IMG/VR virus record: IMGVR_UViG_3300033183_000101 | Location: 1-31,719 of that record | DNA from: a virus | Reading direction: 5' to 3' (one strand) | Length of the DNA: 31,719 nucleotides | Part shown: positions 4,009 through 24,898 of the stretch, piece by piece | How positions within the stretch are numbered: the first letter of the stretch is position 1 | Layout: every line of letters starts with the position of its first letter | The notes under the pieces: model-generated | What the model was told of the DNA's origin: nothing | What the model saw: the letters and a program-made list of their open reading frames with translations, nothing else | The model's database searches: none | Position numbers and translations under genes: made by a program

Positions 4009-4053
4009 AGCTTACCTCTTTTTTTAATCGCATATCAGCGATTCAAAGAGGCA

Positions 4054-4065
4054 GCAACGCACAAA
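4054..4065 (-). promoter_or_regulatory. Late-box copy TTTGTGCGTTGC upstream of the tail fibre
   Basis: One of four exact copies of this 12-mer, all on the minus strand. It begins directly after the TAG of the upstream virion gene and lies 45 nt before the fibre ATG. A small perfect hairpin (AATCGC-TGATAT-GCGATT) follows between box and gene. Promoter or processing-site function is inferred from its recurrence and placement. Confidence 0.6.
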
Positions 4066-7000
4066 CTAGTACCGACCAAACCCGCTAATCTGACCCTCAT
4101 CGTCAATTGCATTGCCTAGCGCACCAGAAAACTCATTGGTTAGCTGTGATAAGAACCATAGTTTTGTGTAAGGCAGCTTACGAATTAAGTCCTTGGTTCC
4201 TTCGCCCAGGTCTCCAGTTACCATCTCATTCATTGCACTGTAATAATCGTATGCAATACTTGGACCTGCACCCGCCAATCCAGTAACAGCACCCATGTAA
4301 TCTTGTTCTTCTGGGAACTTAGGACGGACCAAACCCTCCATGTAGTTATCACCAGTCAATGCCATCGATGTATGCATAGAGGTGTAGAACATATCAGTGT
4401 ACAAACCAGCCGCACCAGAATAATCAAACGCGCGGATCATCTTGTCGCTCATGGGTGTATTATCCCAAGCCCTTTCACCACCTTTGGTTAGCTGTGACTT
4501 CATCTCCAAAGCCATATACGCCATGCCCATCATCCAAAGCGTACCAAACAATGGCGATTTCATCTGACCAGTTGTATATGCCGCTGTAGTTTTGTTGATT
4601 GCACCAAGGGTAAATGAGTAGAACTGGAACGGCAGCGCAAGCACTGGAGATTCCACTCGAGCAAAGCCTTTGTACTTTGGATCGGGCTTCATACCAAACT
4701 TGTTGGCAATACGCATTGGAATCAATGCAACCCCATCCATCATACGCGGACGATCAGCAGGTGTAGCCGTAATGATTGTGTTGAGAACACCGCTGCTTAA
4801 CGCAGTTTGCAGCTTCTCTTTTGCTTTTAATTGTGCTGTGCCCTGCCATGCATCTGTATTTGCATAGATCAAACCACTGTCAGATCGCTCCCAGTTAGCC
4901 TTACCCATTGTGTCTAGGGTCTTATCGTCTAAGTCATAGCGTCGAACGTATTCCATTTCCCATTGTTCGATGGGCTGATCGTTTACTTTACGCTGCGCAA
5001 TATCAATCAGCGTATCTTGGCGAAGAACAGCATCAACTTCTTTGAGATACTTGGTGATAGGCGTTAGCAAATTAAGAATGTAGAACGCATCCTTACCTTT
5101 TTCCCAAACAGAATGGTAAAGAGGATTGTTAGCAAGATCATCGCTAAACCGCATACCTGCACTTAGGAACATACCCTCTAGTGCCTCACCCGCCTTAGAT
5201 GCTTCTTTAACAGATAGCCTTACTTTTTGGTCAGTGTGACGCGCAATCAATGCTTTGAATGTTTTACCCACACCATGCTCTGCCATAATACGCCCAACCT
5301 CAGAGATCGATGCAATACCAGCAGAACCAAGATAGTTTAGCGCAGCAACATCACGCAGAACTTGGAAACTCTTCTGCGCTTTGGTGTGTGGTTTACGCAG
5401 CGCAGCATTCATAACACGATCATAGCTTGTGCGAATATCAGCAGTCGTTGCGAATATTTCTTCAATGCTCATGTCTGTGTTTTCAGCCAAATCAAAGAAT
5501 TGCTCATCAAGCATTTCATCAAAGCTGCGTCCATCAAACTTCTTAGCAAACGCATAACGTGGAGCAACCTTTGCATTGTACTGCATGGCTACCTCGAAAG
5601 GATTCGTAAAGATAAACTCAGTGACCAACTCATTTGGAATATCTAACTGTCTGTGCATCATGTGCTTAGACTTGCCATATCCAAAAAACGCATTCTCAAA
5701 CGCCGACTCATCATCCAAGCCAATAATCTTATCAGCCGTTTCATTTGCACGGCGAATAATTGCATCTGGACTAGTGTCCAAATCTACCCGAGTGATAGGC
5801 GACTCAGGTGTGAACATGATTGTTGTTGGATTCTTCTTGTACCAGTCACTTAGAATCGCAACAAACTTTTCACGGTTAGCTTTGATTGCGTCTGCATTCC
5901 AATATCTAGGAAAGAACACATCCTCATTGGGTGGTTTAATTTCGTCTTGTGTCTTTAGATACTCAAGCGTTTCATCAATGGTTTTCAAATGCGATTTGTA
6001 TTCAGCAATCTTGTTTTTGTATTCTGCAAGAATCTTACCATAGTTAGTCAGCTTTCCATTTAGCTTTACGGTACGATTTTGTTTTATTAAACGATCTAAG
6101 CCTTCTTCGCGCTTGGCAATAACCTTTTGCCAGAACTTCTGGTTATCTTCATAGAATTTGCGTGTACCAATCAGACCAGTATCAAGCAGACGTTTTTCCC
6201 ATGTGCTGTAAAACTCGTCCAGCATATTCATAATCTGGCCTTCGTACATGTTTGCTGGCTTTTGTTTTAGAATCCGTTTCTTAGATACTGTATCTAAGAA
6301 CTCCATCATGTCCCGCTGCCGTGGCTTTATGCCATCAAACGCATAATCAAAGATACGCGTAACACCTTTGTTATCTGCTTGAGCAAACACTGTGAACATA
6401 TCGTTATACATTTTGTACAGTTCAGCTTGGTATTGCTTTTGCTCCACAAACACACTGCGCCCTAGCGTCTGCCCATTTTGGTGCGCTTTGGTTAGCTGAC
6501 CATTATCGCCTACAATGTCGTAGTGGAATTTTTTACTGGCAATAGTTGCTTTCTCGTTTTGCATGTGACGCTTGAACGGCGATGTTGCAAACTTAAACGC
6601 CCAACTATCTGTGTACCAGTTTTGTGCTAGTGTAGGATCAGCAGGTCCAGAAAACTCAGCGACCTCGTCCGCAATATCTTTTGCTGTTTGCTGAATAATT
6701 GTACCAGAGTTTTTACTGCCAATAAAACCTACAATGCCACCTAGCGCACCACCAGCAATACCCGCAGTACCAATTCCAATGGCTGCTTCACCTAGTGTCT
6801 TAGTAGGATCAACAGAAGCAAATGCTGCCTCTTGACCTGCAACAATAGCTGCGTTTGCAATACCAGTACGCAAAGCAGACTTGGCAACGCTTGTCGTTAC
6901 ACCAATAGGCAATGAGATTAGGTTGATTGGATCAAAGAATGAAGCCAGCAATACATTGCCAGTGCTAGAGTTTTCAATCGTGCGCCGCCGCTCGATCATT

Positions 7001-7290
7001 GCATCGACCTTACCCCGCAGATACTCAAGATGATCATCGTTTCTAGCAAACAAAAACGTCGAACTGTATTGATGATACTCTGGTGGCATCTCAAATACAG
7101 ATTGCACAACGTCAAACTCAGGGTCTTCGCGCATCAACTCCTGATCGAACGCATCAACAAAGTTAGAAATAACTGGTTTGTATTGACCTAGAAGTGCGCC
7201 AGATGTTTCAAAGAATGTTGCTTGCTCTGGCCCCATTTCCAATTCACGACCAATATCAAAGTCAGGGGCAATAGTCTTAAATACATCCAT
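4066..7290 (-). CDS. Internal virion protein, gp16 position
   Basis: A 1074-residue protein between a second large virion gene and the fibre, the slot of T7 gp16, which is ejected and spans the host envelope. Residues about 111-190 are strongly hydrophobic and Gly/Ala-rich with several possible membrane-inserting helices. About 255-460 is charged and partly coiled coil. The rest is helical with further hydrophobic patches around 870-930. I see no lytic transglycosylase signature at the N-terminus, unlike T7 gp16. The ATG overlaps the previous stop (TAATG). Assignment rests on size, order and hydrophobic profile rather than recognised motifs. Confidence 0.7.
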   Translation of the reverse strand: MDVFKTIAPDFDIGRELEMGPEQATFFETSGALLGQYKPVISNFVDAFDQELMREDPEFDVVQSVFEMPPEYHQYSSTFLFARNDDHLEYLRGKVDAMIERRRTIENSSTGNVLLASFFDPINLISLPIGVTTSVAKSALRTGIANAAIVAGQEAAFASVDPTKTLGEAAIGIGTAGIAGGALGGIVGFIGSKNSGTIIQQTAKDIADEVAEFSGPADPTLAQNWYTDSWAFKFATSPFKRHMQNEKATIASKKFHYDIVGDNGQLTKAHQNGQTLGRSVFVEQKQYQAELYKMYNDMFTVFAQADNKGVTRIFDYAFDGIKPRQRDMMEFLDTVSKKRILKQKPANMYEGQIMNMLDEFYSTWEKRLLDTGLIGTRKFYEDNQKFWQKVIAKREEGLDRLIKQNRTVKLNGKLTNYGKILAEYKNKIAEYKSHLKTIDETLEYLKTQDEIKPPNEDVFFPRYWNADAIKANREKFVAILSDWYKKNPTTIMFTPESPITRVDLDTSPDAIIRRANETADKIIGLDDESAFENAFFGYGKSKHMMHRQLDIPNELVTEFIFTNPFEVAMQYNAKVAPRYAFAKKFDGRSFDEMLDEQFFDLAENTDMSIEEIFATTADIRTSYDRVMNAALRKPHTKAQKSFQVLRDVAALNYLGSAGIASISEVGRIMAEHGVGKTFKALIARHTDQKVRLSVKEASKAGEALEGMFLSAGMRFSDDLANNPLYHSVWEKGKDAFYILNLLTPITKYLKEVDAVLRQDTLIDIAQRKVNDQPIEQWEMEYVRRYDLDDKTLDTMGKANWERSDSGLIYANTDAWQGTAQLKAKEKLQTALSSGVLNTIITATPADRPRMMDGVALIPMRIANKFGMKPDPKYKGFARVESPVLALPFQFYSFTLGAINKTTAAYTTGQMKSPLFGTLWMMGMAYMALEMKSQLTKGGERAWDNTPMSDKMIRAFDYSGAAGLYTDMFYTSMHTSMALTGDNYMEGLVRPKFPEEQDYMGAVTGLAGAGPSIAYDYYSAMNEMVTGDLGEGTKDLIRKLPYTKLWFLSQLTNEFSGALGNAIDDEGQISGFGRY

Positions 7291-10265
7291 TAGAAGCCTC
7301 CAGACATAGGTCCGTTTTCTTTCAACCAGTTAATAATTTCCATATCGGCACCAAGTTCTTGAAGTGTCTTACCATCTTTTATTTCGAGACTAAGTGCAGA
7401 TGATTGATATTCAGCTAGTTCTTCTGCCATATCAAAACCAAGGCCTTTGCCATGAGGTGTAACAACCTGCTCAAGAACCTTTACGCCACCCTCATCAACT
7501 ATCTCATTAACTGCATATTGTTGCCTTTGCGGTGAAACATTTGCAAACAAAGGCACAAGAACAACAGGGCGATACCCTTTAGTTGTGCTTTCATCTTCAA
7601 CGTGATTGTGCAAAGTATACCCTAATGCATTTAACTGTCCTTCAAGGCTTTCTTGCAAATAGTCTAGGCGTTCTTCATCTTGGCTGGCGACTTGGTTTAA
7701 GGAATACTTTGATCGATTGCGATTGCCAATAGGCCGAGTGCCATCGTAAACAAAGCCAGCTTCTGAGTAGTGACGATTGTATCGACCTAGTATTTCACGC
7801 TCAATCTGTGATTTGCTAAAGTTTCGACCAGCAAGCAATGTAGCAATTTGACCTAACTCTTTTGTAAGCATAACGTCATTATCATCTATAATATTAGCTA
7901 CAAACTTAGATGCTGTAATTTTTTTACCTTCTTCATCCATAAGAAGATTTGCTACACGCTCCTGTGCTCCTGATGCATTTGGAGCGTGCAGTTTTGCTAC
8001 TTCTAAAATTGCTTCTTCAGCAGTGGCATAAATATTAGAAGATGTAGCAATAAGTATCTGGTTTAGTACCGCTTGATCATCTGCGCTAAAGAACCCGCTC
8101 AACACGTTCTGCTTATTATTGGTGGTAATGCCAGCACTTGTAATAGTCACATTGTAGTTTGCTAGTTGGTTAGCAATGTACAACAAGTTCTCTGAGTTGG
8201 CTGCTGGTTGTCCATCAGCCATAGCTTTTAACCCATTAAATACGCTTGTTGGAATACTACGCTGCGCCATCAATTTAATAACTTCTGGCGTAATCGTTTC
8301 CCTGTTTGAAAGATCAAAACCCATACGTTGAGTTAAAACAGCCTCGGCAATGTTCTTAGATTTTACGCTTGTCCTTTCTAGTGAGCCGTTGGCAAAGTCA
8401 TTTACATCTTGCGCTAAATCACGTTCTGCCTTGAGAACTGATTCTTCTTTCTTCATATCAGAAGATATGCTGCGAAGATGTGTCTCAATGTTTTCGCGCT
8501 GTATTGCGTTTAATCCAGCTAGATTTGAATCAACCAATGCAGCAACATCTGGTGCTAGCTCTGATTCACCACCAGTATTGATGTACTGAATAACCCGATC
8601 AACCGCTGTAGAACCTAGGTCGTTTTCACTAAGAATACCTGCGCTAAGAGCCAGCTTGCTAAACTCTTGCTTAGCAGCATTGAATGAAAACCCTTGTCTG
8701 AATGACTCAACACGCGTTGGATCAACACCCGCTTTTTCAGCAGCACCAATAAATATTACTACATCTTCAGGATCAAAGTTAGGTGAATCCATTTCAGTAA
8801 GAAGATTTAAGTAGTTTCTTTGAAAGTCTACTTCTGTTTGTTGACGCTGTAGTGATTCATTTAGTGATGATGAAGACTGTGAAATAAGAGGGCTAAAGAA
8901 CCCAGCATCTTCTTGGTTGCCAGCTTGCAGCAGCCCATACTTATGCAGCCCAATAACAACCTCACGCTGGTTGTCAGTAAGCTGATTCATCATTGTTGTT
9001 AGCGTTGGGCCGTTTACTAGCGCACTGCGGAATGCTTCACTATTACCTTCAGCAGCAGCGCGAGTAATCATTGGGGCTATTAAGTCACGACGAATCTCAT
9101 CTTTGCGCAGTTCTGGATTGATAAAGAACTCATTGGTTGCAGCTTCTCTATCAATGCCTTGACCTGCTACACCAATGCGCTCTCTTGTGTTACGGATCGC
9201 TTGATCGATAGACATTGATCCATCTACAAACGAATCAATTACATCTTGAGTGCTATCAACCTGCAAGCGATCAGAAACATTCTCAAGATCGTTGATATAG
9301 TTTTGCGCTGCTCTACGAGCATTATCATCAGCAATCTTATCTTGAATAGCCTCTAGTGCAGCTAAGTCAGAGTTAAGAGCCTCAACTTCTACAATGACAC
9401 CTTTAACATTGTTTGAGTTGATATACTTAGAAACATCACGATAGACTTCAGCCAGAACGCCAGTAAGTTCACCACCGCCCCCGCTTAGGTGAATAACTAA
9501 TTGCTTACGCTGCGCGGGTGTCATGCCCCCTAGTCTAGTCTTAAGATATGCAGCAGCAGCCTTACCGCCTAGATCATCGGCAACACTCAGGCTAGAACCA
9601 ACCTTTAACCCAGCACCCTCACCATCCTTGGTTGCTTGAACACGTTGCTCGATGTGTGCATCAACAGCATCGAACTTGCCCTCACGCGCATCAACCGCAA
9701 TCTGCTCTGCCGCTTCTGCATTTGTTGCAACGATATGCTCTGCGGATTGTACTCGCGCTCGATCACGCGCTTGCTTTACCAAGCCAAGATGAGTGCTTTC
9801 TTTAACGACTGTCCCCGCATCAATGATGAATCGTTGGAATCGACCATCGCTATTTTTAGCCATACCATCAAGATAGGCTTGCATAGCATTGTCATATTCC
9901 AAAGGACTACGGTCATACTTAACAGCTAACTCTTTAGATTTCAGACGAATGTCCGAATCCATCTGCTCAAAGAATCGACGCTCGATAACATTGCGATACG
10001 ATTCACGCGCTATACGTCCAAAACCCTCGGGTGCGCCCAAGGCAACAGGTTTACCATCAGCATCCAAAGCACGAAGATCAGCAGCAGCTGCCGTTTCCTC
10101 GCCAACTCGTTTAGCTTCCTGTGCATCAATTTTAAATGCAGCACGGCGTAGTTGCTCACCAGCTTCCGCAAATGCCAAGCCAACCTGATCTGCGCCAGTG
10201 TCCATGTTTACCACGCCAATAGGCTGGTTAAATGCTTGCTGTGTTCTGCGGATAACTCGTGCCAT
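7290..10265 (-). CDS. Internal virion protein, gp15 position
   Basis: A 991-residue, mostly helical, polar protein starting at ATG 10265 (MARVIRRTQQAFNQPIG...). A GGGA lies about 9 nt upstream, and the start is 2 nt after the previous stop. An in-frame TTG at 10301 is less likely because it would overlap the preceding gene. The N-terminal 150 residues are Ala/Glu/Arg-rich helices, and no enzymatic motif is visible. Size and position between a gp14-like and a gp16-like gene point to a core component ejected with the DNA. A tail-lysozyme-like activity cannot be excluded. Confidence 0.7.
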   Translation of the reverse strand: MARVIRRTQQAFNQPIGVVNMDTGADQVGLAFAEAGEQLRRAAFKIDAQEAKRVGEETAAAADLRALDADGKPVALGAPEGFGRIARESYRNVIERRFFEQMDSDIRLKSKELAVKYDRSPLEYDNAMQAYLDGMAKNSDGRFQRFIIDAGTVVKESTHLGLVKQARDRARVQSAEHIVATNAEAAEQIAVDAREGKFDAVDAHIEQRVQATKDGEGAGLKVGSSLSVADDLGGKAAAAYLKTRLGGMTPAQRKQLVIHLSGGGGELTGVLAEVYRDVSKYINSNNVKGVIVEVEALNSDLAALEAIQDKIADDNARRAAQNYINDLENVSDRLQVDSTQDVIDSFVDGSMSIDQAIRNTRERIGVAGQGIDREAATNEFFINPELRKDEIRRDLIAPMITRAAAEGNSEAFRSALVNGPTLTTMMNQLTDNQREVVIGLHKYGLLQAGNQEDAGFFSPLISQSSSSLNESLQRQQTEVDFQRNYLNLLTEMDSPNFDPEDVVIFIGAAEKAGVDPTRVESFRQGFSFNAAKQEFSKLALSAGILSENDLGSTAVDRVIQYINTGGESELAPDVAALVDSNLAGLNAIQRENIETHLRSISSDMKKEESVLKAERDLAQDVNDFANGSLERTSVKSKNIAEAVLTQRMGFDLSNRETITPEVIKLMAQRSIPTSVFNGLKAMADGQPAANSENLLYIANQLANYNVTITSAGITTNNKQNVLSGFFSADDQAVLNQILIATSSNIYATAEEAILEVAKLHAPNASGAQERVANLLMDEEGKKITASKFVANIIDDNDVMLTKELGQIATLLAGRNFSKSQIEREILGRYNRHYSEAGFVYDGTRPIGNRNRSKYSLNQVASQDEERLDYLQESLEGQLNALGYTLHNHVEDESTTKGYRPVVLVPLFANVSPQRQQYAVNEIVDEGGVKVLEQVVTPHGKGLGFDMAEELAEYQSSALSLEIKDGKTLQELGADMEIINWLKENGPMSGGF

Positions 10266-10267
10266 GT

Positions 10268-10714
10268 TTAGATTCCCATCTTGTAACCAGTAGATGCCCA
10301 ATCATGCATACCAGACATGAAGTTACTCATCGTTCGTATGCGTGTGGCTGCGGCTTGGTTCCTTCCGCGTTGTATTTCTACAAGTGCTGCAACAGTTCGT
10401 TTACCAGATTCCAGTGCAGCTTGCGTCTGCATCGTAGCTAGATCGTCAAACGCAACCTCTTTTTGATTTGCAAAGAATGCATCGATGCTTGCATCAAAGT
10501 CTCGGTTGTAAAGAAGTGTTGCTTCATTACTTGCTAAATCATCGAAGTATTGCTGATACCTCATGTTTTGTTGCTGTGCGGCTTGTGCTTCACTAATAAT
10601 TCTATCAGTGATCATGTTTTCCGCTGTGTCTCTGGATGCTTGCTCTTGTGCTTTGGCAGCAGCCATGCCGCCCATCAAGTTCACCCCAAGGCCGATTACC
10701 TGAAAGATACTCAT
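10268..10714 (-). CDS. Small internal virion protein, gp14-like
   Basis: A 148-residue protein opening with a hydrophobic Gly/Met/Ala segment (residues about 4-20, possibly membrane-active) followed by long helices rich in Gln, Ala and Arg. T7 gp14, a small ejected core protein that inserts in the outer membrane, has this build and this gene position. The ATG overlaps the stop of the tail tubular B gene by one base, so translation is probably coupled. The call rests on synteny and composition. Confidence 0.65.
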   Translation of the reverse strand: MSIFQVIGLGVNLMGGMAAAKAQEQASRDTAENMITDRIISEAQAAQQQNMRYQQYFDDLASNEATLLYNRDFDASIDAFFANQKEVAFDDLATMQTQAALESGKRTVAALVEIQRGRNQAAATRIRTMSNFMSGMHDWASTGYKMGI

Positions 10715-12957: not shown

Positions 12958-13550
12958 TATGTTGCCCTTACATTAACAAGACCACGCGCGTTCAACCTAC
13001 GAGTTGTTTGTTGTTGTGAATCTAGGTTTCGTGCTTTGATCATGGAAACCTGTGCTTGTTGCTGCATCAAAGATGCTAATCCCTGATCTCTAGCAAGACC
13101 AATAGCAAAAACAGAAGCCAACTCATATTGCACTGCAACTGTAAAATATGAAGGCCAGTCCTGTTCTTCTGCTCGATATGTGTAATCTAGTATGAGTGTT
13201 TCGTTTGCGCTGGCATCAGTATAAATCTTGTTGCCGTATGTATCATACTCAATTGGGTGATCGTTTATTGTAACTGCATGAGTCATTAACCAACCACTTG
13301 GCAGTTGATATGCTGCATCAAAACGACCAGTTGGTGTATCACTCAAGCGGTTCATCACCACTTGGTTTGTAGCAAAACGCCAGCGACAGTTCACCAAAGC
13401 TGAACGTGCAACGTCTTCATACATGTTAGATGCAATGAGTGCTTCATTATTTCCATCATCGAATGATGTAATAGGATCAGCACCAATTAGGATTAAAGCG
13501 CGGCTACATACATCAATCGGTGAATTTGCGGGTGTACTCGAAACTGCCAT
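12957..13550 (-). CDS. Tail tubular protein A (gatekeeper, gp11-like)
   Basis: A 197-residue protein with features of T7 gp11 relatives: an N-terminal helix ending in ALILIGADPITSFDD, the RSALVNCRWRFA segment, and a LPSGWL motif before a beta region. Its role is the dodecameric ring joining portal to nozzle. Length matches the family (about 196 residues in T7). It is the first gene after a hairpin terminator and is coupled to the next gene by a one-base overlap. Confidence 0.93.
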   Translation of the reverse strand: MAVSSTPANSPIDVCSRALILIGADPITSFDDGNNEALIASNMYEDVARSALVNCRWRFATNQVVMNRLSDTPTGRFDAAYQLPSGWLMTHAVTINDHPIEYDTYGNKIYTDASANETLILDYTYRAEEQDWPSYFTVAVQYELASVFAIGLARDQGLASLMQQQAQVSMIKARNLDSQQQTTRRLNARGLVNVRAT

Positions 13551-13571
13551 ACCTAATCCTTATGTGGGAAA

Positions 13572-13587
13572 GGGGGCCGAAGCCCCC
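13572..13587 (-). terminator. UUCG hairpin between capsid and tail genes
   Basis: On the minus strand the sequence reads GGGGGC-TTCG-GCCCCC followed by TTT. This gives a six-pair all-GC stem with a stable UUCG tetraloop and a short U-run. It lies just after the small capsid-associated gene and before tail tubular A. The short U-tract suggests leaky termination or mRNA 3'-end protection that would make capsid mRNA more abundant than tail mRNA. Confidence 0.6.
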
Positions 13588-13592
13588 GATCA

Positions 13593-13862
13593 TTAGTCTG
13601 TGTCAGTCGCTGTGACTGTTAGGCCATCGGTAACGTCGATTGCAGATGAAGATACATCTTTCGCATATACCAATGAAACAACAGGTGTACCGCCAGTAGA
13701 AGTAACTGCGATGATTACATCATTCTTTGCAATCATGCCGATTGCATCGTTGAAGTAACCAGCAGTGTTTACTGTGGCGATAGTGTCCGCTGTTGAGTAG
13801 TGCCACAAGGACATGCCTGAAGCACCAGCCAAACGGTTCAAACTAGAAGCTGTGTAAGCCAT
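13593..13862 (-). CDS. Small capsid-associated protein, possible decoration
   Basis: An 89-residue Ala/Thr/Val-rich protein (MAYTASSLNRLAGASGMSLWHYSTADTIATV...) located 12 nt after the major capsid gene and before the hairpin terminator. Small beta-rich proteins of this type, opening MAYT and carrying a SLWHYSTAD-like motif, often follow the capsid gene in marine phages. Capsid decoration or head-fibre function is inferred from that position. No known catalytic motif is present. Confidence 0.6.
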   Translation of the reverse strand: MAYTASSLNRLAGASGMSLWHYSTADTIATVNTAGYFNDAIGMIAKNDVIIAVTSTGGTPVVSLVYAKDVSSSAIDVTDGLTVTATDTD

Positions 13863-13874
13863 TACTCAGTCTCC

Positions 13875-14684
13875 TTAGTTGTTATCTAGAACTTCGTACA
13901 CACCGTTGTCGTCAATAACGACAGAACCCATAGACATCATTGATGTTGCTAGGTGTGATACTTTCTGTGGTACATAGTTAACTTCTGTCTGTACGTCAGA
14001 GTTAATACCAATACCAACAGCACGCATATGGTACGCAAAGTTCTTACCGCCAGATACAGCAGACGTTGAGAAAATCTTGAAGCCCAAGAACTCTTTCATT
14101 GTCATGCCACCAGCAAATGGTAGGTTTTGTGGTCCAACAAAGTCGCTTGATGCAAACTCATTAATGTTGAACAAGTCAGCAAAACCAGCAGGTGCCATTG
14201 CGATATAACGCTGTCCATCTTCTGGAATGTCGGCTGCGCCGAATGTCTCGAAGATTGATAGTAGGTCAGCCTTAACTAGCGCACCTGATGTGTCGTTGAT
14301 CTGTGTTGAGTTCGCACCTGCATCCATTGCAGTTGTGATGATCTCATCAGTCTTACGACCTAATGCTGCCGCCGCAGATTCAGCAACCGCTTGACGCTCG
14401 TTGATGTTGATCTTCAACTCGTCTAGCTTGTCGATGTATTCCGCTGCATAATAGTCAGCCATAGTCGCTTCAACATTGGTGTGTGTTAGTTCCATTGCTG
14501 AAACGTCACCGTTGCGTGACTTTGTTGACGCTGTACCAGCACCGATTTTTTGGAAACGTGCAACTGATCCTGTTACGTTTGTTGAGCGGATCGTGTTGCG
14601 TAGTTTGGAACCCATGCGCTGATAAGCCAAATGCACATCGGTTTCAAACTGCTTGATAAAGGCTTGGTCAATTGTATTAGCCAT
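13875..14684 (-). CDS. Major capsid protein
   Basis: A 269-residue protein between scaffold-region and tail genes. It starts with a helical arm (MANTIDQAFIKQFETDVHLAYQRMGSKL), followed by an Arg/Thr-rich E-loop-like stretch (IRSTNVTGSVARFQKIG) and an alternating alpha/beta body ending in a beta domain. This fits a compact HK97-fold capsid of the short podoviral type. The length is below T7 gp10A (about 345 residues) but usual for this marine family as I recall it. The leader between the upstream gene and the ATG is 78 nt. A TTTGTGCGTTGC box lies 132 nt upstream, inside the previous gene. Confidence 0.88.
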   Translation of the reverse strand: MANTIDQAFIKQFETDVHLAYQRMGSKLRNTIRSTNVTGSVARFQKIGAGTASTKSRNGDVSAMELTHTNVEATMADYYAAEYIDKLDELKININERQAVAESAAAALGRKTDEIITTAMDAGANSTQINDTSGALVKADLLSIFETFGAADIPEDGQRYIAMAPAGFADLFNINEFASSDFVGPQNLPFAGGMTMKEFLGFKIFSTSAVSGGKNFAYHMRAVGIGINSDVQTEVNYVPQKVSHLATSMMSMGSVVIDDNGVYEVLDNN

Positions 14685-14762
14685 TTTACAGTCCTATTGT
14701 TGAGTTTCTTCGCATTCGGGTATCCGCGCCGCATCCTCAACGAAGGTATCCTGTCGGGCTTC

Positions 14763-15305
14763 TCAGTGCATTACGGGCCTAGCTACATCCTTTACAACAA
14801 AATTTTTATTTGGATTGCAACGCACAAATTCAACATATTGTGTTTTTTTGTACTCAGACATACCAACAGGCTCAAAACCTAGCCATGCTGCCCAGTTCAA
14901 CATAGCCTCATATTCTGCGTTAATTGTCATGGTTAACAGCGGATATGTCTTATCAAAGAAGTTTGTTAGCATCTTTGATCCACGCGCAAGCAAGGTAAAA
15001 TTATCTCTGATCTTTGTTGTAAACAACGCAAACATCTGTGGATTCTCCACATCTAGAATCACTCCGCCCACAAACACAATCTCTCCATTGCCATCACGCA
15101 CAAGATAAACTTCACTTGTTTCAGCAACCTCAACTAGAGCATCAACTACATTCGTATGACCTAGCTGAGTAAACTCACGAATGTTTTCTGGGTGAATAAT
15201 GTGAACAAACTCATAGACATGTTCTTCTAAAAAGGGGGTCAAGTAATATGACCCCCGCTCCATTATTCTGACTTCGTTATCCATAGAGTTTCTTAAACCC
15301 TTCAT
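14763..15305 (-). CDS. GNAT-like protein, T7 gp13 type
   Basis: A 180-residue alpha/beta protein. The pattern of a strand with VYLVRDGNGEIVFVGGVI, the helix DNFTLLARGSKML and a C-terminal NWAAWLGFEPVGM resembles the acetyltransferase-like fold of the gp13 group of phage proteins. In T7 that protein is needed for virion assembly. I cannot confirm a working acetyl-CoA site. The start is uncertain: ATG 15305 has AGG close upstream and a 29-base overlap with the scaffold gene, while ATG 15284 gives an 8-base overlap. The C-terminal FVRCN is encoded by one TTTGTGCGTTGC box, so the tail of this gene also contains a regulatory site. Confidence 0.65.
   Translation of the reverse strand: MKGLRNSMDNEVRIMERGSYYLTPFLEEHVYEFVHIIHPENIREFTQLGHTNVVDALVEVAETSEVYLVRDGNGEIVFVGGVILDVENPQMFALFTTKIRDNFTLLARGSKMLTNFFDKTYPLLTMTINAEYEAMLNWAAWLGFEPVGMSEYKKTQYVEFVRCNPNKNFVVKDVARPVMH
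14817..14828 (-). promoter_or_regulatory. Late-box copy TTTGTGCGTTGC upstream of capsid
   Basis: An exact copy of the 12-mer, here inside the last codons of the gp13-like gene (reading FVRC) and 132 nt before the capsid ATG. An A/T-rich stretch (AAATAAAAATTTT) follows it within 6-20 nt, as at the copy near 21626. Confidence 0.55.
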
Positions 15306-15993
15306 CTACCTGCTTGATCCAATTAGAATCTCGCCGTGATGGATTCCAATATCGTTCGTCTTTCATCATCTCCTGAAGTTCTACTTCGTTGAAGTTTGCA
15401 GAGATGTTGTTTTGATCAGCAACACTTGGCTCCTTCATTGCATTCATAATAGCTTCTAGTGCAATAATACCTTCTGCACTTTCACACATACGCTCGATGG
15501 CTGGCATTGCTTCTTCTGGAAAGAAGTTGTTAGCAAAAAGGTTTGCTGCCTCAATACGCGCTTCTGAATTATCACCAAGACGTGATGCCTCTGCCTCAAG
15601 ATCAGGCTGTGGCCCCATGCCATTCATGTACATTTCAATACCCTTTTGGAACTCGTCGTGGGTATATCCATTCTCGTGACAATGCTCTGCCCATTGCTGG
15701 AGCAACTCATTGTCCATAGCTTCTTCTGCATCAACAAAATCAGGTAGTTCATACTCACCAGCTTTTTCAGGGACACCTTCAGATGCTTGCTGCTGCAACT
15801 CCTCCATGAGTCGCGCACGAACATCATCTTCCTTTTCACCTAGCTTTGTAGACAAAGCATTGTATGACTTTGCCATATCCTCTGGTGTATTAAACTTTTC
15901 TGGCAACCACTCAGGCCGCTCGGGTGCTGCTTCAGGTGTTGCTTCTACTGGTGCTGCTTCTGTTGCTTCACTTACTTGTGCTTCGTTTTCCAT
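15277..15993 (-). CDS. Scaffolding (capsid assembly) protein
   Basis: A 238-residue, very acidic protein. It has a low-complexity Ala/Glu/Pro-rich N-terminus (to about residue 28), a central helical region starting at PEWLPEKFNTPEDMAKSYNAL, and a basic C-terminal helix (NWIKQVDEGFKKLYG). The WLPEKF...PEDMAKSY segment and this location are typical of T7 gp9-type scaffolds, whose basic C-terminus contacts the capsid protein. It overlaps the upstream small gene by 26 nt and the gp13-like gene downstream. Confidence 0.88.
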   Translation of the reverse strand: MENEAQVSEATEAAPVEATPEAAPERPEWLPEKFNTPEDMAKSYNALSTKLGEKEDDVRARLMEELQQQASEGVPEKAGEYELPDFVDAEEAMDNELLQQWAEHCHENGYTHDEFQKGIEMYMNGMGPQPDLEAEASRLGDNSEARIEAANLFANNFFPEEAMPAIERMCESAEGIIALEAIMNAMKEPSVADQNNISANFNEVELQEMMKDERYWNPSRRDSNWIKQVDEGFKKLYG

Positions 15994-16249
15994 TTTCTTT
16001 TACCTTATGGGCGTGGTTCATACGGTTTTCTAAAAGGCCAACGATATAACGCTGCCCCTCCATGTGACGTAGTTCTTCAGTTGTGACATTAGGGCCATGC
16101 ACCATTTCGATGGTAATGGATCGCAAATACTTCAACACTGCCTGTCCTGTCGCAGAACCAAACAACGTTGCTACATTCTCACTGATCTCACGATCTTTAG
16201 CCTGTGGACGCTGAATCCCATCAATGCCCACGTTGATCTTCTGGCTCAA
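15968..16249 (-). CDS. Small Bbp19-like virion-assembly protein
   Basis: A 93-residue protein between portal and scaffold. The central part (LFGSATGQAVLKYLRSIT..., then a helix HMEGQRYIVGLLENRM) resembles the small Bbp19-type family found at this position in podoviruses such as BPP-1. The ends are charged. The function is unproven; position suggests a role in head assembly. It starts 3 nt after the portal stop codon and its tail overlaps the scaffold start by 26 nt. Confidence 0.65.
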   Translation of the reverse strand: MSQKINVGIDGIQRPQAKDREISENVATLFGSATGQAVLKYLRSITIEMVHGPNVTTEELRHMEGQRYIVGLLENRMNHAHKVKENGKRSTSK

Positions 16250-16252
16250 GCA

Positions 16253-17791
16253 TTACTCCATTGGTTGTGGTGCTTGCGCCTGATTCTGCTGCATCTGCTG
16301 CATAAATGCAATAACTTGTTGTCGCTCTTGTTCATCGCGTATCAAATTATCTGGTACGCCAAACTTCTTAGCTAAGTATGCTGCGGTTTGCTCTGAAGAT
16401 ATTAGAACCTGCATTAGCTCTGAGCCAAAGGCTCCACCCGCTAGTTCTAGGAAACGTGCAACGGCTGTAATGTCTTGGTTGGCTTGTGCTTGTGCCAAAG
16501 GCGATACAGATTTTACGCGAACCTCACGACCATTCACAGTCGGCAACTCAATGCGTCCCTGCTTCTTCAAAATGTAAATCACACGTTGAAGTACAGTTTG
16601 CACAAGTTCTTTTTGCAATCGACCAAAAGCTGCACCCATACGGCGAGACAAATCAGCCATGCGTTCAGCAACCTCTGTTGCAGATGCAGGTGTACGATTC
16701 GGATCACCAAGCATATCGTTATACAAATGCCTCTTGATATTGTTCTGTGCTTTATCAAGATTAAACTGCGCAATATCAAAGCGACCCGCAGGTTGAATAG
16801 GCTGCAATCCTTGTGATCCCATTGCCTTTGGAATGATTGTTCCAGGGACTAGGTTGATTGTATCAATGTTAATTACGCCATCATCTTCCATTTGATAAAT
16901 GCCAGAGATAGCCATCTGCGCATTTTCAAGAACCATCTCCATAACTTTGTTAGTTACTTTGATGTCAGACAGTGCATTGAACAACGGCCCACGACCATAG
17001 ACTTCACCAGCACAAGTTCCCCAGCGGAAACAAATAAACGGATTAGACCCAAGACCAACCATCTCACGCTTCATCAAAACAGAGTTGGTCGTCATGCAAA
17101 TAGCATAATGGTAGTATGCTTCTTGGTTTGTTTTTGTATAGTTTCGGCAAACAACCTCAAGAACTGTTGTTGTCTGATCGCCTTGGTTTGCCATCAATCC
17201 TTGAAGCTGGCTATTAAAATTACCTTTTGGATATAGAATAGCTAGTTGATCATATCGAATCTTTTTACGCTCACGAAAGATATGATCGATCTCATCGTCG
17301 GGACCAGTATCGAGAATGACATGTGGTAGGGGTATTGCTTTAAAACGAACTGGATGTACTGCGTCCCCTTCCTCGCAAACAAGAACCCCAGTCCCGACTG
17401 CCAAGTCCATAAAGGACTCATGCACCTCTTGAGCAAAGTTTGAGTTCTGCAAAACTTCAAACACATACTCGGTAACTTCTTCCAACTCATTGTTTACTGA
17501 ATCACGTTGTTCTTTTGGAACTTCTGACCCAGCATTTAAGTCAGCCCATCGTGAATAGTTTGGAACAATCCCAGACTGTAGTCGGGATGCAAATTCCTGA
17601 ACACCTACAACCGCAGTTGAGTCAAAGATTTTATCATCTCGCCTTTGACCCGATACCTCATAATAGAATGACTCGCGCTGGGGCAAAGCATACTCATAGC
17701 ATTCTTCAAATACATCAACAAAGTTAGTACGCTTTGCTTTGGCTCGTTCATACCGCTTTAGGTATTCTTTTGCGATTGGATCAGTAATCAT
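16253..17791 (-). CDS. Portal (head-tail connector) protein, gp8-like
   Basis: A 512-residue protein of the T7 gp8 family (Head-tail_con). It has an N-terminal helix with RYERAKAKRTNFVDVFEECYEYALP, then FDSTAVVGVQEFASRLQSGIVPNYSRWADL, and a C-terminal helical part ending in a Gln-rich tail (QQMQQNQAQAPQPME). Length agrees with T7 gp8 (about 536 residues). Twelve copies form the DNA channel at the head vertex, bind terminase during packaging and later hold the tail. The ATG overlaps the stop of the preceding gene (TAATG). Confidence 0.95.
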   Translation of the reverse strand: MITDPIAKEYLKRYERAKAKRTNFVDVFEECYEYALPQRESFYYEVSGQRRDDKIFDSTAVVGVQEFASRLQSGIVPNYSRWADLNAGSEVPKEQRDSVNNELEEVTEYVFEVLQNSNFAQEVHESFMDLAVGTGVLVCEEGDAVHPVRFKAIPLPHVILDTGPDDEIDHIFRERKKIRYDQLAILYPKGNFNSQLQGLMANQGDQTTTVLEVVCRNYTKTNQEAYYHYAICMTTNSVLMKREMVGLGSNPFICFRWGTCAGEVYGRGPLFNALSDIKVTNKVMEMVLENAQMAISGIYQMEDDGVINIDTINLVPGTIIPKAMGSQGLQPIQPAGRFDIAQFNLDKAQNNIKRHLYNDMLGDPNRTPASATEVAERMADLSRRMGAAFGRLQKELVQTVLQRVIYILKKQGRIELPTVNGREVRVKSVSPLAQAQANQDITAVARFLELAGGAFGSELMQVLISSEQTAAYLAKKFGVPDNLIRDEQERQQVIAFMQQMQQNQAQAPQPME

Positions 17792-18321
17792 TATAGGAAC
17801 CTGCTAAAATATCCCATTCCACCTGAAGACGATGTTAGTAGGCTGCGGCGTCCGCGTCCAGAACGAGTTGTTCTGCGTCTAAGTGCTGCTGCCGACAGTG
17901 CTTTTGGTGCAGTTGGTGCTTTCAGTCCAGTTGCAGTCATTTCCGATCCAGTAACACGCGGTGTAGTTTCATCAACTTTGGTGCGAACTGTTTCTGGCTC
18001 TGGTGCTGGCGCAGGTGTTGCTGCTCGTTCAGGTGCAGAGACTGACGTTACCAAAGACCCTGTGATTCTTGGTGCTGCCACTGGTCTTGGTGCTGGGGTA
18101 ACAGGAATAGATGATGCCATCTCAGCTTGGCGTTGTTCTTTAGCGCGATTTGCTGCTTCAGTTGCTGCCGCAGTAGCTTTAGCTTCTTTTTCTGCTTCTA
18201 GCTGTTTCTGGCGGTTTGCTTCCTGTTCTAGACGCGCTGCTTCTTTTGCGGCTTCCGCTGCTTCACGCTGGCGTCTTTGTTCTTCCTCAATACGCGGGTC
18301 ACGCTTTGGTTTGAAACACAT
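17791..18321 (-). CDS. Ala/Lys/Glu-rich phage protein with RGRRSLLT tail
   Basis: A 176-residue low-complexity protein. It opens MCFKPKRDP, runs through a strong coiled coil to about residue 70, a Pro/Ala/Thr-rich linker (75-150), and ends in a basic SGRGRRSLLTSSSGG motif plus YFSRFL. I recall this build and C-terminal motif upstream of portal genes in many marine podoviruses, with no defined function. It may be a virion or packaging accessory. It has an AAAGGAG binding site, and a TTTGTGCGTTGC box lies 48 nt upstream, so it begins a probable late transcript that continues into the portal gene. Confidence 0.75.
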   Translation of the reverse strand: MCFKPKRDPRIEEEQRRQREAAEAAKEAARLEQEANRQKQLEAEKEAKATAAATEAANRAKEQRQAEMASSIPVTPAPRPVAAPRITGSLVTSVSAPERAATPAPAPEPETVRTKVDETTPRVTGSEMTATGLKAPTAPKALSAAALRRRTTRSGRGRRSLLTSSSGGMGYFSRFL

Positions 18322-18369
18322 ATGCTATCTCCTTTGTTATATCCCTGTAAGCAGAGAAAAGGTTAGATT

Positions 18370-18381
18370 GCAACGCACAAA
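18370..18381 (-). promoter_or_regulatory. Late-box copy TTTGTGCGTTGC upstream of the portal pair
   Basis: An exact copy of the 12-mer, beginning with the first base after the TGA of the terminase large subunit gene and 48 nt before the ATG of the 176-aa gene. The intervening leader contains GATATAAC just before the binding site. The same placement, immediately after a stop codon, is seen at 4054-4065. Confidence 0.6.
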
Positions 18382-19905
18382 TCAGAAGCGCGACCAGAAT
18401 CCACTGCCACTTCTGCGATTAACAGGCTTCTTAAACACATCGAAACTACGACCAGCAACAACGGGACGCGCAGGTTTCTGGTTATTCATCAACGCTCGAC
18501 CCTCACCAGCACCAAGCATCATGTATTGCAGCGCATCGTGAATATGCGAGAACATATTTTTGTCAGGTTTGTCAGCGTACCGTTCACCGCTAACTTCCAT
18601 GCGCTTATACTGATAGCCACCTTCAAAACCCTTAATAAGCTGAGAACAACGGCGGTCTATTAAAAAGGCTGGCTTCCCCTCGATCATCTTAGTCAGTTGT
18701 GAGGAAACCGACTCAAGTCGAAGGTCAACAGAGTTGGAGGGCGCAGGGAAAGCCCTCAAGCCAGCCCCACGCAGAATATGAAAAGGTGTGGATTCATCAG
18801 TCTGCGCTCTAAAGTCACCAGCGGGATCACCATAGATATACACCTCGGATGCTTGGGAAAACCGCGTAGCAATCTCCTCGCGCAACACTTCAGCAAAACG
18901 AACGATGCCCATATCGAACGCAACAATCTCTGCTTGAACCAACCAGCGACCTCGGACTTTCTGACCCAATGTGGCAGCAGGGGTCAAACCAAAGTCCAAG
19001 CCAACATACAAAGGCGCACCCGCAGCAACAGGTATCTCCTCCTTTGCAACATGAACATCAGGCGCAAACATAGGATAGATCGGCTTACCATCCTGAATCG
19101 TGCCCAACCTGTTCATCACATAAACATCAATCCAACTCTTGGTCTTACCACGAATAAGATTCGGGTAGTAAGACTTCATCATGTGCTTTTGATTCTCAGC
19201 CTCGGTGTTAGGGGTATAATCCTGTATTTCACCCTCATCATCCTTGACCTCAACCATTCCCGCAGGTTGCGTAAAGAACTGCCAGTTGTCAGGCTTGACC
19301 AACATCTTAGCTTGTTCGCGCGGAATATGATCGGGAATCGGAACCTCGCCAGACATAATAGGCCACCAGTGATCTTCTTCAGGCGCGTTCGTGTCAGCAA
19401 TTACACCAGTCCAACTTGGGCCACCGTCTTTCATGCTAGGAAAACGACCAACACGCATAGTACATGCATCAATAATTGACTTGGGTATCTCCCTAGCCTC
19501 ATTGATCCAGATGCCAGTTAGTTCGAGAGAGAGAAGTTTCTTGACATCTTCGGGACGATCAAGGGCTAGGAAGATAACTTCAAGGTCGATCTCACCCTTC
19601 TTAATATGGTGCGTATATGGAACCGACCATGTGAACTTGCCCCAGTCTGCTTCTGGGAACCAATCAAGCCATGTCTTAATAGTTGTAGTTCGTAGCTGTG
19701 GGTTAGTGTTTCGGATGATGGCCCATCGAGATTTTCTAATCCCATCAGGTCCTTTCTTCTGTTCGAGTGCGCGGCGAAAAACTTCAACACAACAGCCAAC
19801 AGATTTACCACTTCCTACAGGCCCCCTAATCCCACGAAAAAATGTCTGATCCTTCATAAAGGATTTCAGCACTTCACCATCAGGCTTGTACTTAAAATCA
19901 ACCAC
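18382..19905 (-). CDS. terL: Terminase large subunit
   Basis: A 507-residue DNA-packaging motor. Walker A is GPVGSGKS at residues 28-35. A Walker B-like strand, LTGIWINEA, lies at 129-137 with the catalytic Glu at about 136. The C-terminal RNase H-like nuclease has candidate metal ligands D304 (YVGLDFG), D360 (YIYGDPAGD) and D457 (SHIHDALQY). It packages DNA into the prohead through the portal and cuts concatemers. The start is GTG, overlapping the previous TAG by one base. The cutting mode cannot be told from sequence alone. Confidence 0.96.
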   Translation of the reverse strand: MVDFKYKPDGEVLKSFMKDQTFFRGIRGPVGSGKSVGCCVEVFRRALEQKKGPDGIRKSRWAIIRNTNPQLRTTTIKTWLDWFPEADWGKFTWSVPYTHHIKKGEIDLEVIFLALDRPEDVKKLLSLELTGIWINEAREIPKSIIDACTMRVGRFPSMKDGGPSWTGVIADTNAPEEDHWWPIMSGEVPIPDHIPREQAKMLVKPDNWQFFTQPAGMVEVKDDEGEIQDYTPNTEAENQKHMMKSYYPNLIRGKTKSWIDVYVMNRLGTIQDGKPIYPMFAPDVHVAKEEIPVAAGAPLYVGLDFGLTPAATLGQKVRGRWLVQAEIVAFDMGIVRFAEVLREEIATRFSQASEVYIYGDPAGDFRAQTDESTPFHILRGAGLRAFPAPSNSVDLRLESVSSQLTKMIEGKPAFLIDRRCSQLIKGFEGGYQYKRMEVSGERYADKPDKNMFSHIHDALQYMMLGAGEGRALMNNQKPARPVVAGRSFDVFKKPVNRRSGSGFWSRF

Positions 19906-20105
19906 TACCGTAGTCCTTTATCAACCCCAGACCGAATCATCTTCTCGGCAGCTTCCGCGCCGATATTCTCAATCACATTGTCGATCATCTTGTTTGTCAC
20001 AAATGACGCGCCATGCTTCTGATCAAAATACTGAAAGTGAATGTTCTTAACAATGCGACGAAGCATTGTCAGTTCTTCTTGCTTTAAAGTGTTTACAAAA
20101 CTCAT
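19905..20105 (-). CDS. Small conserved protein upstream of terL
   Basis: A 66-residue basic protein (MSFVNTLKQEELTMLRRIVKNIHFQYFDQKH...) with two or three helices. I do not know a function. Small proteins of this kind just upstream of terL are common in marine phages. It overlaps the DUF5872-like gene by 4 nt (ATGA) and terL by 1 nt, so it is translated with them and may serve packaging. Confidence 0.65.
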   Translation of the reverse strand: MSFVNTLKQEELTMLRRIVKNIHFQYFDQKHGASFVTNKMIDNVIENIGAEAAEKMIRSGVDKGLR

Positions 20106-20338
20106 GTGCGATACTTCCTCACTTTTCTCGCAATAGTTTTCGGTTGAGCCACAAACTGCTTACCCTTAGCCTTACCCGCTCGTTTAGCTCTGGTTGTAGC
20201 TGCATATTCAGAATCACTAAGAGCAGCAATGGCCTTCTCAGGTAAATACCTTTCACCTGTTTCGCTAGACTTCTTCCCACTCTTGGTGCGCCACTTTTGC
20301 TTACCCCAATTAAGTAGAGACTTTTGCGGAGCCTTCAT
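20102..20338 (-). CDS. Small basic protein, DUF5872-like
   Basis: A 78-residue, very Lys/Arg-rich protein. The order WGKQKWRTKSGKKSS, then GERYLPEKAIAALSDSEYAATTRAKRAG, then VAQPKTIARKVRKYR matches my memory of DUF5872, frequent in marine phages and giant viruses. The charge suggests binding to DNA or RNA, but no role is proven. The AGAGGGAAG binding site upstream lies inside the preceding micro-ORF. Confidence 0.72.
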   Translation of the reverse strand: MKAPQKSLLNWGKQKWRTKSGKKSSETGERYLPEKAIAALSDSEYAATTRAKRAGKAKGKQFVAQPKTIARKVRKYRT

Positions 20339-20396
20339 TTGCTTCCCTCTGTTTCTTTAGTATGGCGTTTAGTGTGCCGCGATCTTCGTAAGTCAT
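20310..20396 (-). CDS. Possible 28-residue micro-protein (MTYEDRGTLNAIL...)
   Basis: This short ORF fills the 57-base gap between the 136-aa and DUF5872-like genes. Its ATG overlaps the upstream TAA (TAATG), and it overlaps the downstream gene start by 29 nt, carrying that gene's binding site. It has the one-base coupling seen across this block, which argues for translation, perhaps only to bring ribosomes to the next start. The predicted peptide is charged (MTYEDRGTLNAILKKQ). Confidence 0.4.
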   Translation of the reverse strand: MTYEDRGTLNAILKKQREANEGSAKVST

Positions 20397-20806
20397 TATA
20401 TCTGCCGCTTTTTCAACAATGACATGCGCGGACGCGCTGTTTCGTCAGGTGACTTAATGCTGCCGCCGCCGCCACCACCTTTTGGTGAAAGGTCCTTAGC
20501 ACCAGAAAATAAAGACTTTGCTTTTGACTTAAGTGCGGATTCAGCAGACTTAAATGCATCAGTCCCCGCAACTTTGTTTAACGTTTTTAGGTTTTTCTGG
20601 TTGTTTGCGTAGTTTTCGGCTGTAAGTTTTTTCATTTCAGCCGCAGAAACGCCTTTGTCTTTGGCATACGCAGTCATCTTTTTTGATGAATCAAGTCGCT
20701 CTTTTCTTTTCGCTTGCTCAACCTGAATGCGGTTGATCATTGTGCGAATCTGCCTAACATCGTACTCAGATGTTCCATCAGAAAGAGTGACCTTGAACTT
20801 AGCCAT
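20396..20806 (-). CDS. Unknown Lys-rich protein with poly-Gly linker
   Basis: A 136-residue protein opening MAKFKVTLSDGTSEYDV. Residues 20-90 form Lys/Ala-rich helices. A Ser/Lys region follows, then a run of six glycines (about 111-116) and a basic end (RMSLLKKRQI). I do not recognise a family. Composition suggests a nucleic-acid- or capsid-binding protein. It overlaps neighbours by one base on both sides, as part of the tiny-protein train before terL. Confidence 0.6.
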   Translation of the reverse strand: MAKFKVTLSDGTSEYDVRQIRTMINRIQVEQAKRKERLDSSKKMTAYAKDKGVSAAEMKKLTAENYANNQKNLKTLNKVAGTDAFKSAESALKSKAKSLFSGAKDLSPKGGGGGGSIKSPDETARPRMSLLKKRQI

Positions 20807-20976
20807 TACTTATAACCTCCACCCTTAGCCTTATATTCTTTAGCCAGTAGTTGCGCCTTACGCGCAGACCACTGACCAGCCGCAGTTCCGTGAGTCGCTC
20901 TGGCCTTGATCTTCTTAAACAAACTCTTGCGCATCTCTGGCTTTGTGTAATTGCCAGCCTTGTTTACCGTACTCAT
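20806..20976 (-). CDS. 56-residue conserved small basic protein
   Basis: This reads MSTVNKAGNYTKPEMRKSLF..., with AAGQWSARKAQLLAKEYKAKGGGYK at the end. The N-terminal KAGNYTKP and C-terminal GQWSARKAQ...GGGY signature is one I recall from small proteins of many marine phages. The start ATG overlaps the upstream gene by 4 nt (ATGA). The stop overlaps the next ATG by one base. Strong family-like sequence and perfect packing make this a real gene despite its size. Function is unknown. Confidence 0.75.
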   Translation of the reverse strand: MSTVNKAGNYTKPEMRKSLFKKIKARATHGTAAGQWSARKAQLLAKEYKAKGGGYK

Positions 20977-21233
20977 GGAAACTCTTTGTCCCCTAGTTTG
21001 TTTGCGTTTTTAAGCAAAGAAGCAGACATCTTCTTGAACTCAGCCTTGGCCTTCTTCAACTCCTTAGAGTCAGGCTCCATGTCAGCTAGCTTCAATCCTT
21101 GCTTGCTATACATCTTCAACACATTCCGCAAAGAACGCGTGAAGTTCGCACGGCTCATATTCTTAATATCAACCTGCTTTGCACCAGCGCGAGCAGACAT
21201 CAATGAAGTCGGTGTACCAGAACCTCTAGGCAT
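20973..21233 (-). CDS. Unknown small basic protein
   Basis: An 86-residue protein (MPRGSGTPTSLMSARAGAKQ...) with a Ser/Gly-rich N-terminus and Lys-rich helices (SKELKKAKAEFKKMSASLLK). There are no membrane segments or motifs I recognise. It is linked to both neighbours by start-stop overlaps (TAATG before, ATGA after), so it belongs to one translational unit with the DUF6321-like and 56-residue proteins. Confidence 0.6.
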   Translation of the reverse strand: MPRGSGTPTSLMSARAGAKQVDIKNMSRANFTRSLRNVLKMYSKQGLKLADMEPDSKELKKAKAEFKKMSASLLKNANKLGDKEFP

Positions 21234-21538
21234 TACGCTCTATCCTTCTTTGCTTTGTTTCTTCGACTTATCGCTCGAGCCTTTGCTTTTGCGTCCGCCT
21301 TGCTTGACGCTCCCCACGCTTTTAGACTTAGAAGCAACCTTGTCGGTCTTCCCTTGCTGTCTTTTTCTGGCCCCTTGGCTCCCCCCATCCGCGCTAGAAA
21401 GCTGGCTCGCCTTGGATTGTCCCCGCTTTTTACTGGCGGCTTTAACGTCCCGCCCTTGTAACTCGCCCGACCCTTGGCGTTCAATCCCCCCTTCGGGTTC
21501 TTGCCCTCCTTGCGAGTCCACGCTGGTGTCTTTGCCAC
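21233..21538 (-). CDS. Small basic protein, DUF6321-like
   Basis: A 101-residue protein starting at GTG 21538, with AAGGAG 8 nt upstream. A TTG at 21544 would sit too close to that site. It opens VAKTPAWTRKEGKNPKGGLN and continues with NAKGRASY, PPVKSGDNPRRASFLARM, GRPTRLLLSLKAWG and a Lys/Arg-rich tail, the pattern I know as DUF6321 in marine phages. Function is unknown. A second ORF in another frame (21240-21593, ATG with its own AGGGG site) covers the whole gene. Family resemblance supports the frame given here. Confidence 0.72.
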   Translation of the reverse strand: MAKTPAWTRKEGKNPKGGLNAKGRASYKGGTLKPPVKSGDNPRRASFLARMGGAKGPEKDSKGRPTRLLLSLKAWGASSKADAKAKARAISRRNKAKKDRA

Positions 21539-21625
21539 GAGCAATCTCCTTCAACTTAGACCACTTGGCCATAATCTTCGATACATCTACCATAATATAC
21601 CCCTACAACGAAAAATATTTATCGG

Positions 21626-21637
21626 GCAACGCACAAA
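21626..21637 (-). promoter_or_regulatory. Late-box copy TTTGTGCGTTGC upstream of the tiny-protein/terL operon
   Basis: An exact copy of the 12-mer in the gap between the terminase small subunit gene and the tiny-protein train. It is followed by CCGATAAATATTTTTCG, A/T-rich like the sequence after the copy at 14817. This is the only copy in a roomy intergenic space (21594-21747). A 7-bp inverted repeat (21668-21674 and 21711-21717) lies upstream of it. Confidence 0.6.
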
Positions 21638-22125: not shown

Positions 22126-22269
22126 TGTGTATCACCCAGTGTGCTTCAATGTGTTATCATCACCTGTGCTTGCATCAATTATTTACAATCAAGAGGTTTG
22201 TGATCCTCGTAATCACCCCCCCTGCAAGTCCCCCCCAAACTGCGTCTTTTGTCAATGGTCTGTCAAGTA

Positions 22270-24882: not shown

Positions 24883-24896
24883 CTGCATAAATGCAG
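24863..24896 (+). promoter_or_regulatory. Promoter with operator over the -10 (copy 2)
   Basis: TTGACG (24863-24868), 17-bp spacer, CATAAA (24886-24891). The palindrome CTGCATAAATGCAG (24883-24896) covers the -10 box. The expected transcription start, about 7 nt past the -10, falls at the ATG (24899) of the following HTH gene, so its message would be leaderless, like lambda cI from PRM. There is no binding site before that ATG. Confidence 0.5.
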
Positions 24897-24898
24897 AC

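Follow-up and report, generated by a model that had tools for sequence, protein, structure and literature searches.

What reads a short repeated box ahead of the late genes of a phage that carries no recognisable RNA polymerase is the question raised by the virus contig analysed here (IMG/VR record IMGVR_UViG_3300033183_000101; the whole stretch of 31,719 nucleotides is referred to as the window). The 12-mer TTTGTGCGTTGC is present in four exact copies, all on the minus (late) strand. The virion genes of this 31.7-kb contig lie on the minus strand and its early genes, encoding XRE regulators, a RusA-like resolvase, a YqaJ exonuclease and a Sak annealing protein, on the plus strand. An initial sequence-only reading placed the copies upstream of the tail fibre, the capsid, the portal pair and the tiny-protein/terL operon, and an exact-match check of the window together with its ORFs and annotation agrees with these positions, strand and contexts (Table 1), the operon running from 21593. 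As that reading described, two copies begin at the first base after a stop codon (copy 1, after ORF 4066-7290, and copy 3, after terL), and copy 2 is located inside the 3' end of ORF 14763-15305. Its claim that such a repeat is not expected by chance was also borne out. No other 12-mer of the window reaches four copies, and none exceeded three same-strand copies in 100 simulated windows of the same first-order composition. Relaxing the search to at most two mismatches adds a single match (25579-25590) and gives a total in line with chance; the signal therefore resides in the exact copies.

Table 1. Positions of the boxes, promoter-like elements and genes of the window discussed in the text
Feature	Positions	Strand	Remarks
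Box copy, site A	21626..21637	-	Exact; upstream of small-ORF/terL operon, first ORF 21240-21593
Box copy, site B	18370..18381	-	Exact; adjoins terL stop; upstream of ORF 17791-18321 and portal
Box copy, site C	14817..14828	-	Exact; inside 3' end of GNAT-like ORF, upstream of major capsid gene
Box copy, site D	4054..4065	-	Exact; adjoins stop of ORF 4066-7290, upstream of tail fibre
Site E counterpart, upstream of terS	22230..22266	-	TTGACA, then GGGGGGG 30 nt on
Second element of site A, TGTAGGGG	21600..21607	-	Weakest of the -10-like elements
Extended -10-like TGCTTA, site B	18348..18353	-	29 nt from box start
-10-like TGTTG, site C	14795..14799	-	30 nt from box start
Extended -10-like TGATAT, site D	4032..4037	-	Offset-29 class
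Hairpin GGGGGTCATATTACTTGACCCCC-TTTTT	15234..15256	-	Terminator-like; just after scaffold gene, upstream of site C
Terminase large subunit gene (terL)	18382..19905	-	
Portal / head-tail adaptor gene	16253..17791	-	phrog_332
Major capsid gene	13875..14684	-	phrog_3437; first after site C
Tail fibre gene	1279..4008	-	
Small early gene overlapping the XRE gene	24842..25183	+	Kept in genomes without XRE gene and boxes
Candidate activator gene, early operon	25068..25307	+	79-aa XRE-family helix-turn-helix protein

Searches with the TerL, capsid, terS, RusA and XRE proteins gathered several hundred related loci, mostly on metagenomic and incomplete contigs. The box sites were classified by their neighbours: A between terS and terL, B directly after the terL stop, C about 150 nt before the capsid gene, D before the fibre gene and E before terS. 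The box is kept at the same places in more than 100 of these loci, almost always on the late strand; a motif search of related genomes, proposed as a check by the sequence-only reading, recovered it in most relatives, so that the absence from these places which would have refuted that reading did not occur. The first 154 loci contain 109 exact copies of the 12-mer, every one of them on the late strand; when up to two mismatches are tolerated, the matches number 348, versus 76 and 79 in the reverse-complement and reversed controls, respectively. The core TTGTGCGTTG was found, mostly in three to four copies, in 42 of 44 distinct contigs scanned whole (16/18, 12/12 and 16/16 in the three scan sets, two contigs of the second set being already in the first), and the exact-core matches are syntenic (capsid, after terL, terS-terL, fibre and before terS). 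At most one mismatch in the 10-base core is seen in 138 of 162 loci at site B and 110 of 120 at site C; the box is present in 11 of 14 loci at site D, and at site A it occupies the same place in relatives and is more variable than elsewhere (e.g. TTTGTGCATTGT). On the TerL tree, box B changes state 11 times, at least six of them on well-supported branches. Only two of 130 core copies, in G058 and G059, run against the majority strand of their contig. These two boxes (L273 contig position 4956; L274 contig position 3880) are on the early strand and precede early genes. Each is located inside an early ORF, reads GAA/GAG-TTT-GTG-CGT-TGT and is separated by some 1.2-1.7 kb from the XRE gene downstream.

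Short stretches of the tail-fibre gene (window 2096-2674) share 94-100% DNA identity with Roseobacter phages CRP-1, CRP-5, CRP-7 and CRP-227, which suggests recent exchange and perhaps a Roseobacter-type host. Some of the related contigs belong to a Rhodobacterales MAG.

At site C the box encodes Phe-Val-Arg-Cys of a GNAT-like gene, both in the window and at 101 loci. Six loci (L100, L108, L128, L137, L138 and L142) lack the GNAT gene; in these, the end of the scaffold gene immediately precedes the box, which is kept as non-coding DNA. Because it persists in these relatives without the GNAT-like gene, the box is a nucleic-acid signal and the constraint is not on protein. A first codon test at this site was motif-selected and hence biased, and the GNAT-less genomes were used instead. 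The start of the GNAT-like ORF also holds a hairpin, 15 to 50 nt past the scaffold stop, which was found in 39 of 65 non-redundant relatives, compared with 0-8 at other offsets. It displays matching changes on both arms and, in some copies, a T-run, and resembles an attenuator, or else a processing hairpin, separating scaffold from capsid.

Most site classes share a second element, TGnT(T/A), at a distance of 29-31 nt from the box start. Of 58 non-redundant site-B sequences, 42 have TGnTW at offset 29. The motif stands at offset 30 at site C (31 of 40 sequences) and at offset 31 at site E (6 of 12); at site D, 4 of 5 sequences show TGnTA at offset 29. The TTG at box positions 9-11 lies where a -35 element would be expected, and a -10-like hexamer follows after a spacer of 17-19 bp. 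A sigma-70-type promoter with an extended -10 would pair a -35 (TTG...) with TGnTAnnnT at 16-19 bp spacing and start transcripts 6-7 nt after the -10; here the TTG and the TGnTW recur in four site classes and the hexamers are weak, a tentative resemblance. Site A is irregular, its consensus tAgGGT lying about 34-38 nt from the box start, at the place expected for a -10 element. A scan with the consensus sigma-70 promoter gave no match at the boxes and fewer matches in all than in shuffled sequences, and is hence uninformative. The predicted start would be about 44 nt from the box start, which at B and D is just before the ribosome-binding site. At site A of the window the first ATG is at position 45, that is, at the predicted start, making the start there unsure. 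In box-less relatives, the terL stop at site B runs straight into the ribosome-binding site (e.g. GAATGTAGGAGATAGCTATG), which indicates that a segment of about 50 nt is gained or lost as one piece. Taken alone, a late-promoter function of the boxes is very probable.

Site E of the relatives reads TTTGTGCGTTGACA...TGcTAT...GGGGGG, including the TTGTGCG half, and the bases following the box complete a TTGACA; in the window the TTGACA and the G-run are kept and the TTGTGCG half is missing. Two G-runs stand just before terS (window 22216-22236, minus strand, GGGGGGGACTTGCAGGGGGGG; in relatives GGGGGGAGAGAGGGAGAGGGGGG) and might represent a packaging site or else a leader element. The capsid gene begins 133 nt downstream of the end of the site-C box. 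Its leader of about 100 nt from the predicted start to the ATG (window 14685-14785, minus strand) is strongly conserved in sequence, with GGCCCGTAATGCACTGA... and two GGATACCC repeats. A consensus RNA fold of this leader was considered and set aside, the conservation of the sequence being strong and the consensus structure weak.

The factor left as an unknown activator by the sequence-only reading can be given a candidate through co-occurrence with the box, namely the product of the early gene 25068-25307. The protein matches the HTH_3 profile above its cut-off and phrog_4836, annotated as CII-like (E 1e-6). Its predicted structure (pLDDT 77) has the helix-turn-helix fold of the XRE family, and XRE proteins head the list of its PDB neighbours (best E 0.005). 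The recognition-helix positions C, S, H, K, W and E are invariant in 114 distinct proteins. The gene is present in all ten box-bearing genomes first compared. Sixteen loci keep both neighbours of the XRE gene without the gene itself, and the 13 of their contigs that were scanned contain no box. Counted by distinct site sequences, in rows that are related and non-independent, the box accompanies the gene in 39 of 39 loci at site B, 25 of 25 at site C and 48 of 70 site sequences at site A, versus 0 of 4, 0 of 5 and 0 of 12, respectively, where the gene is lacking. The TerL tree contains two independent losses of the XRE gene on supported branches, both without box B, although two losses are too few for a significant sign test. 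The near-complete G080, G082 and G014 lack the XRE gene and have kept the remaining conserved early and late genes; at site C of this clade, which reads TTTGTTCGTTGC, the box is altered by a synonymous change. The small early gene overlapping the XRE gene remains in box-less genomes, which counts against it as the activator. It appears reasonably likely that the box is read by the XRE protein.

The pairing of gene and box is strong, but not absolute. L519 (contig G113, 32.7 kb) has a strong XRE gene and no canonical box, with GTTTTACATTGA at B and TTTCTACGTTGC at C. In the clade that it forms with L194, L224 and L230, the boxes are eroded or re-specified (GTTTTACATTGA, GTTTTCCATTGA at B), at least L519 keeping the XRE gene, and such a clade amounts to a natural experiment on recognition. 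L268 encodes a divergent XRE protein and lacks box B, and the XRE-minus contig G109 contains one TTGTGCATTG, away from the late sites. A different recognition helix (CSDGLVQKWE) is found in L038 and L193, and L038 nonetheless has a normal B box. Variants of the recognition helix were rejected as an explanation of the box variants, since the Leu-to-Ile change of L519 is also found in L205, which has a B box, and L038 is the reverse case.

We consider it likely that the host RNA polymerase uses a family of late promoters of which the box forms the upstream half, with the XRE protein most likely binding and activating them. The computations show that the box is conserved, oriented and consistently placed, that nucleic acid and not protein is constrained, that a second element follows and that two clades lost the boxes along with the gene; from these sequence patterns we infer promoter activity, start sites, DNA binding and activation rather than repression. 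The TTG at positions 9-11 would serve as the -35 element, followed after the 17-19 bp spacer by a weak extended -10 (TGnTW), and the TTGTGCG preceding it may be the recognition site that makes these promoters late and phage-specific. The early XRE protein encoded by the phage would bind TTGTGCG and recruit the host polymerase, and this recruitment would open the four blocks of virion genes. Among the points against this reading, the -10-like element is weak, and the box is not palindromic, while XRE dimers usually bind inverted repeats.

Other explanations differ in how they account for these features. Chance, or constraint on an FVRC peptide, has a practically negligible probability: copy 2 does lie in coding sequence, but the simulations and 12-mer counts exclude chance, and the box is non-coding at the other sites and, in six loci, at C itself. 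Promoters of a phage single-subunit RNA polymerase of the T7 type would be expected before the same genes, given the T7-like gene order. Consistent with the sequence-only reading, which saw no RNA polymerase gene, no T7-type polymerase (PF00940) was found in the window or in 19 long relatives, while the T7 control scored 360 bits; no cognate enzyme was thus identified, and the sequence 3' of the box varies, which would not be expected of a T7-type initiation region. Unless a very divergent polymerase is present, this origin is contradicted, and it is extremely improbable. Late promoters of the phiEco32 type would require a phage sigma factor, and sigma-70 region 4 (PF04545), the only sigma domain searched for, was absent from 20 records with positive controls. 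The two options of the sequence-only reading fared differently: a host-polymerase late promoter with an additional activator is well supported, and an RNA processing site is less likely, since the site classes share no hairpin but do share a promoter-like second element at a near-fixed distance. More broadly, an RNA signal in the late transcripts (a processing site, 5' stabiliser or antitermination site) would agree with the nearly constant late-strand orientation and with the enrichment of hairpins just downstream of the box in site-B sequences. These hairpins are enriched at site B only and were discarded as a common signal. Folding z-scores are about zero at A and C, the window has no Rfam match, TGnTW at its near-fixed distance and the TTGACA at E fit recognition of DNA, and loss of the box accompanies that of an XRE DNA-binding gene, so an RNA signal is very unlikely.

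The same co-occurrence of gene and box would also be produced if the box were an operator, with the XRE protein binding across the -35 and repressing ordinary host late promoters early in infection. The box does overlap the -35 position, and P22 c2 and other repressors are among the structural neighbours of the protein. Nevertheless, we regard repression as unlikely: the box is strictly oriented and non-palindromic, the weak -10 better fits an activated promoter, and relatives without the gene lack more than an operator at B, the entire promoter segment of about 50 nt being absent. These last two points, the weak promoter and the joint disappearance of the gene and the whole segment, are why activation is preferred over repression. 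Alternatively, the XRE gene may be a linked bystander, the promoters being read by the host polymerase alone or by another phage factor such as an SSB-like protein. In phage N4, its own SSB activates late host-polymerase promoters, and here the SSB-like gene 28080-28619, as well as gene 24498-24719, is also present in all ten genomes first compared. Both genes, however, stay in the box-less G080 and G082, where the XRE gene is missing, and ten near-invariant bases are more than host -35 recognition requires; a bystander role is conceivable but doubtful. Activation by the XRE protein remains the preferred reading.

The papers searched contained no description of this box or promoter, of the regulator or of the phage group. 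The nearest isolated relatives by TerL and capsid, with a similar gene order, are the OM43 phage MEP301 and Pelagibacter phage Hodr (OQ414635). MEP301 is reported to have no RNA polymerase (PMC8024684), and a search for one in Hodr was negative. The box is absent at the corresponding sites of both, and the XRE homologue of Hodr has a different recognition helix (GVADSLITAWE). In podophages phiEco32 and 7-11, late genes are transcribed by the host core polymerase with a phage sigma factor (PMC8948821); in contrast, no sigma region 4 was found in the window and its candidate is an XRE protein. T7-like phages likewise place promoters before the capsid, portal, fibre and terminase blocks, but no RNA polymerase gene was found in the window.

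The late timing of T7-like phages lacking an RNA polymerase is usually attributed to 'host machinery' without more detail. This group is represented by hundreds of contigs from ocean metagenomes, and a specific box, a promoter layout that is nearly fixed and one candidate regulator can now be named for it. If the proposal is true, the XRE gene and its boxes would form a removable late-switch module, widespread in a largely uncultured group, and the box would be a marker for annotating the late operons of uncultured relatives.

Possible parallels exist among well-studied phages. Many T4 middle promoters rely on a phage protein that takes over or assists recognition of the -35, the MotA box lying at a fixed distance from the -10. 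The box sequence and spacing differ from those of the window, in which no MotA or AsiA genes were seen. The promoters of lambda CII (pRE, pI and paQ) also combine a small phage helix-turn-helix activator, the host sigma-70 RNA polymerase and several promoters with a short oriented box of TTG repeats at the -35 region. CII sites are TTGC-N6-TTGC, whereas the box of the window is TTG-N4-TTG, its TTGs 7 bp apart, and is not a CII site; CII serves lysogeny, and the boxes of the window precede virion genes. A phage activator acting with host polymerase is, in general kind, known. Its particular form here, in which an XRE protein of largely uncultured T7-like marine podophages without an RNA polymerase would read an asymmetric 10-bp box and activate matching virion promoters, gene and boxes being lost together, is one to which we incline by a small degree.
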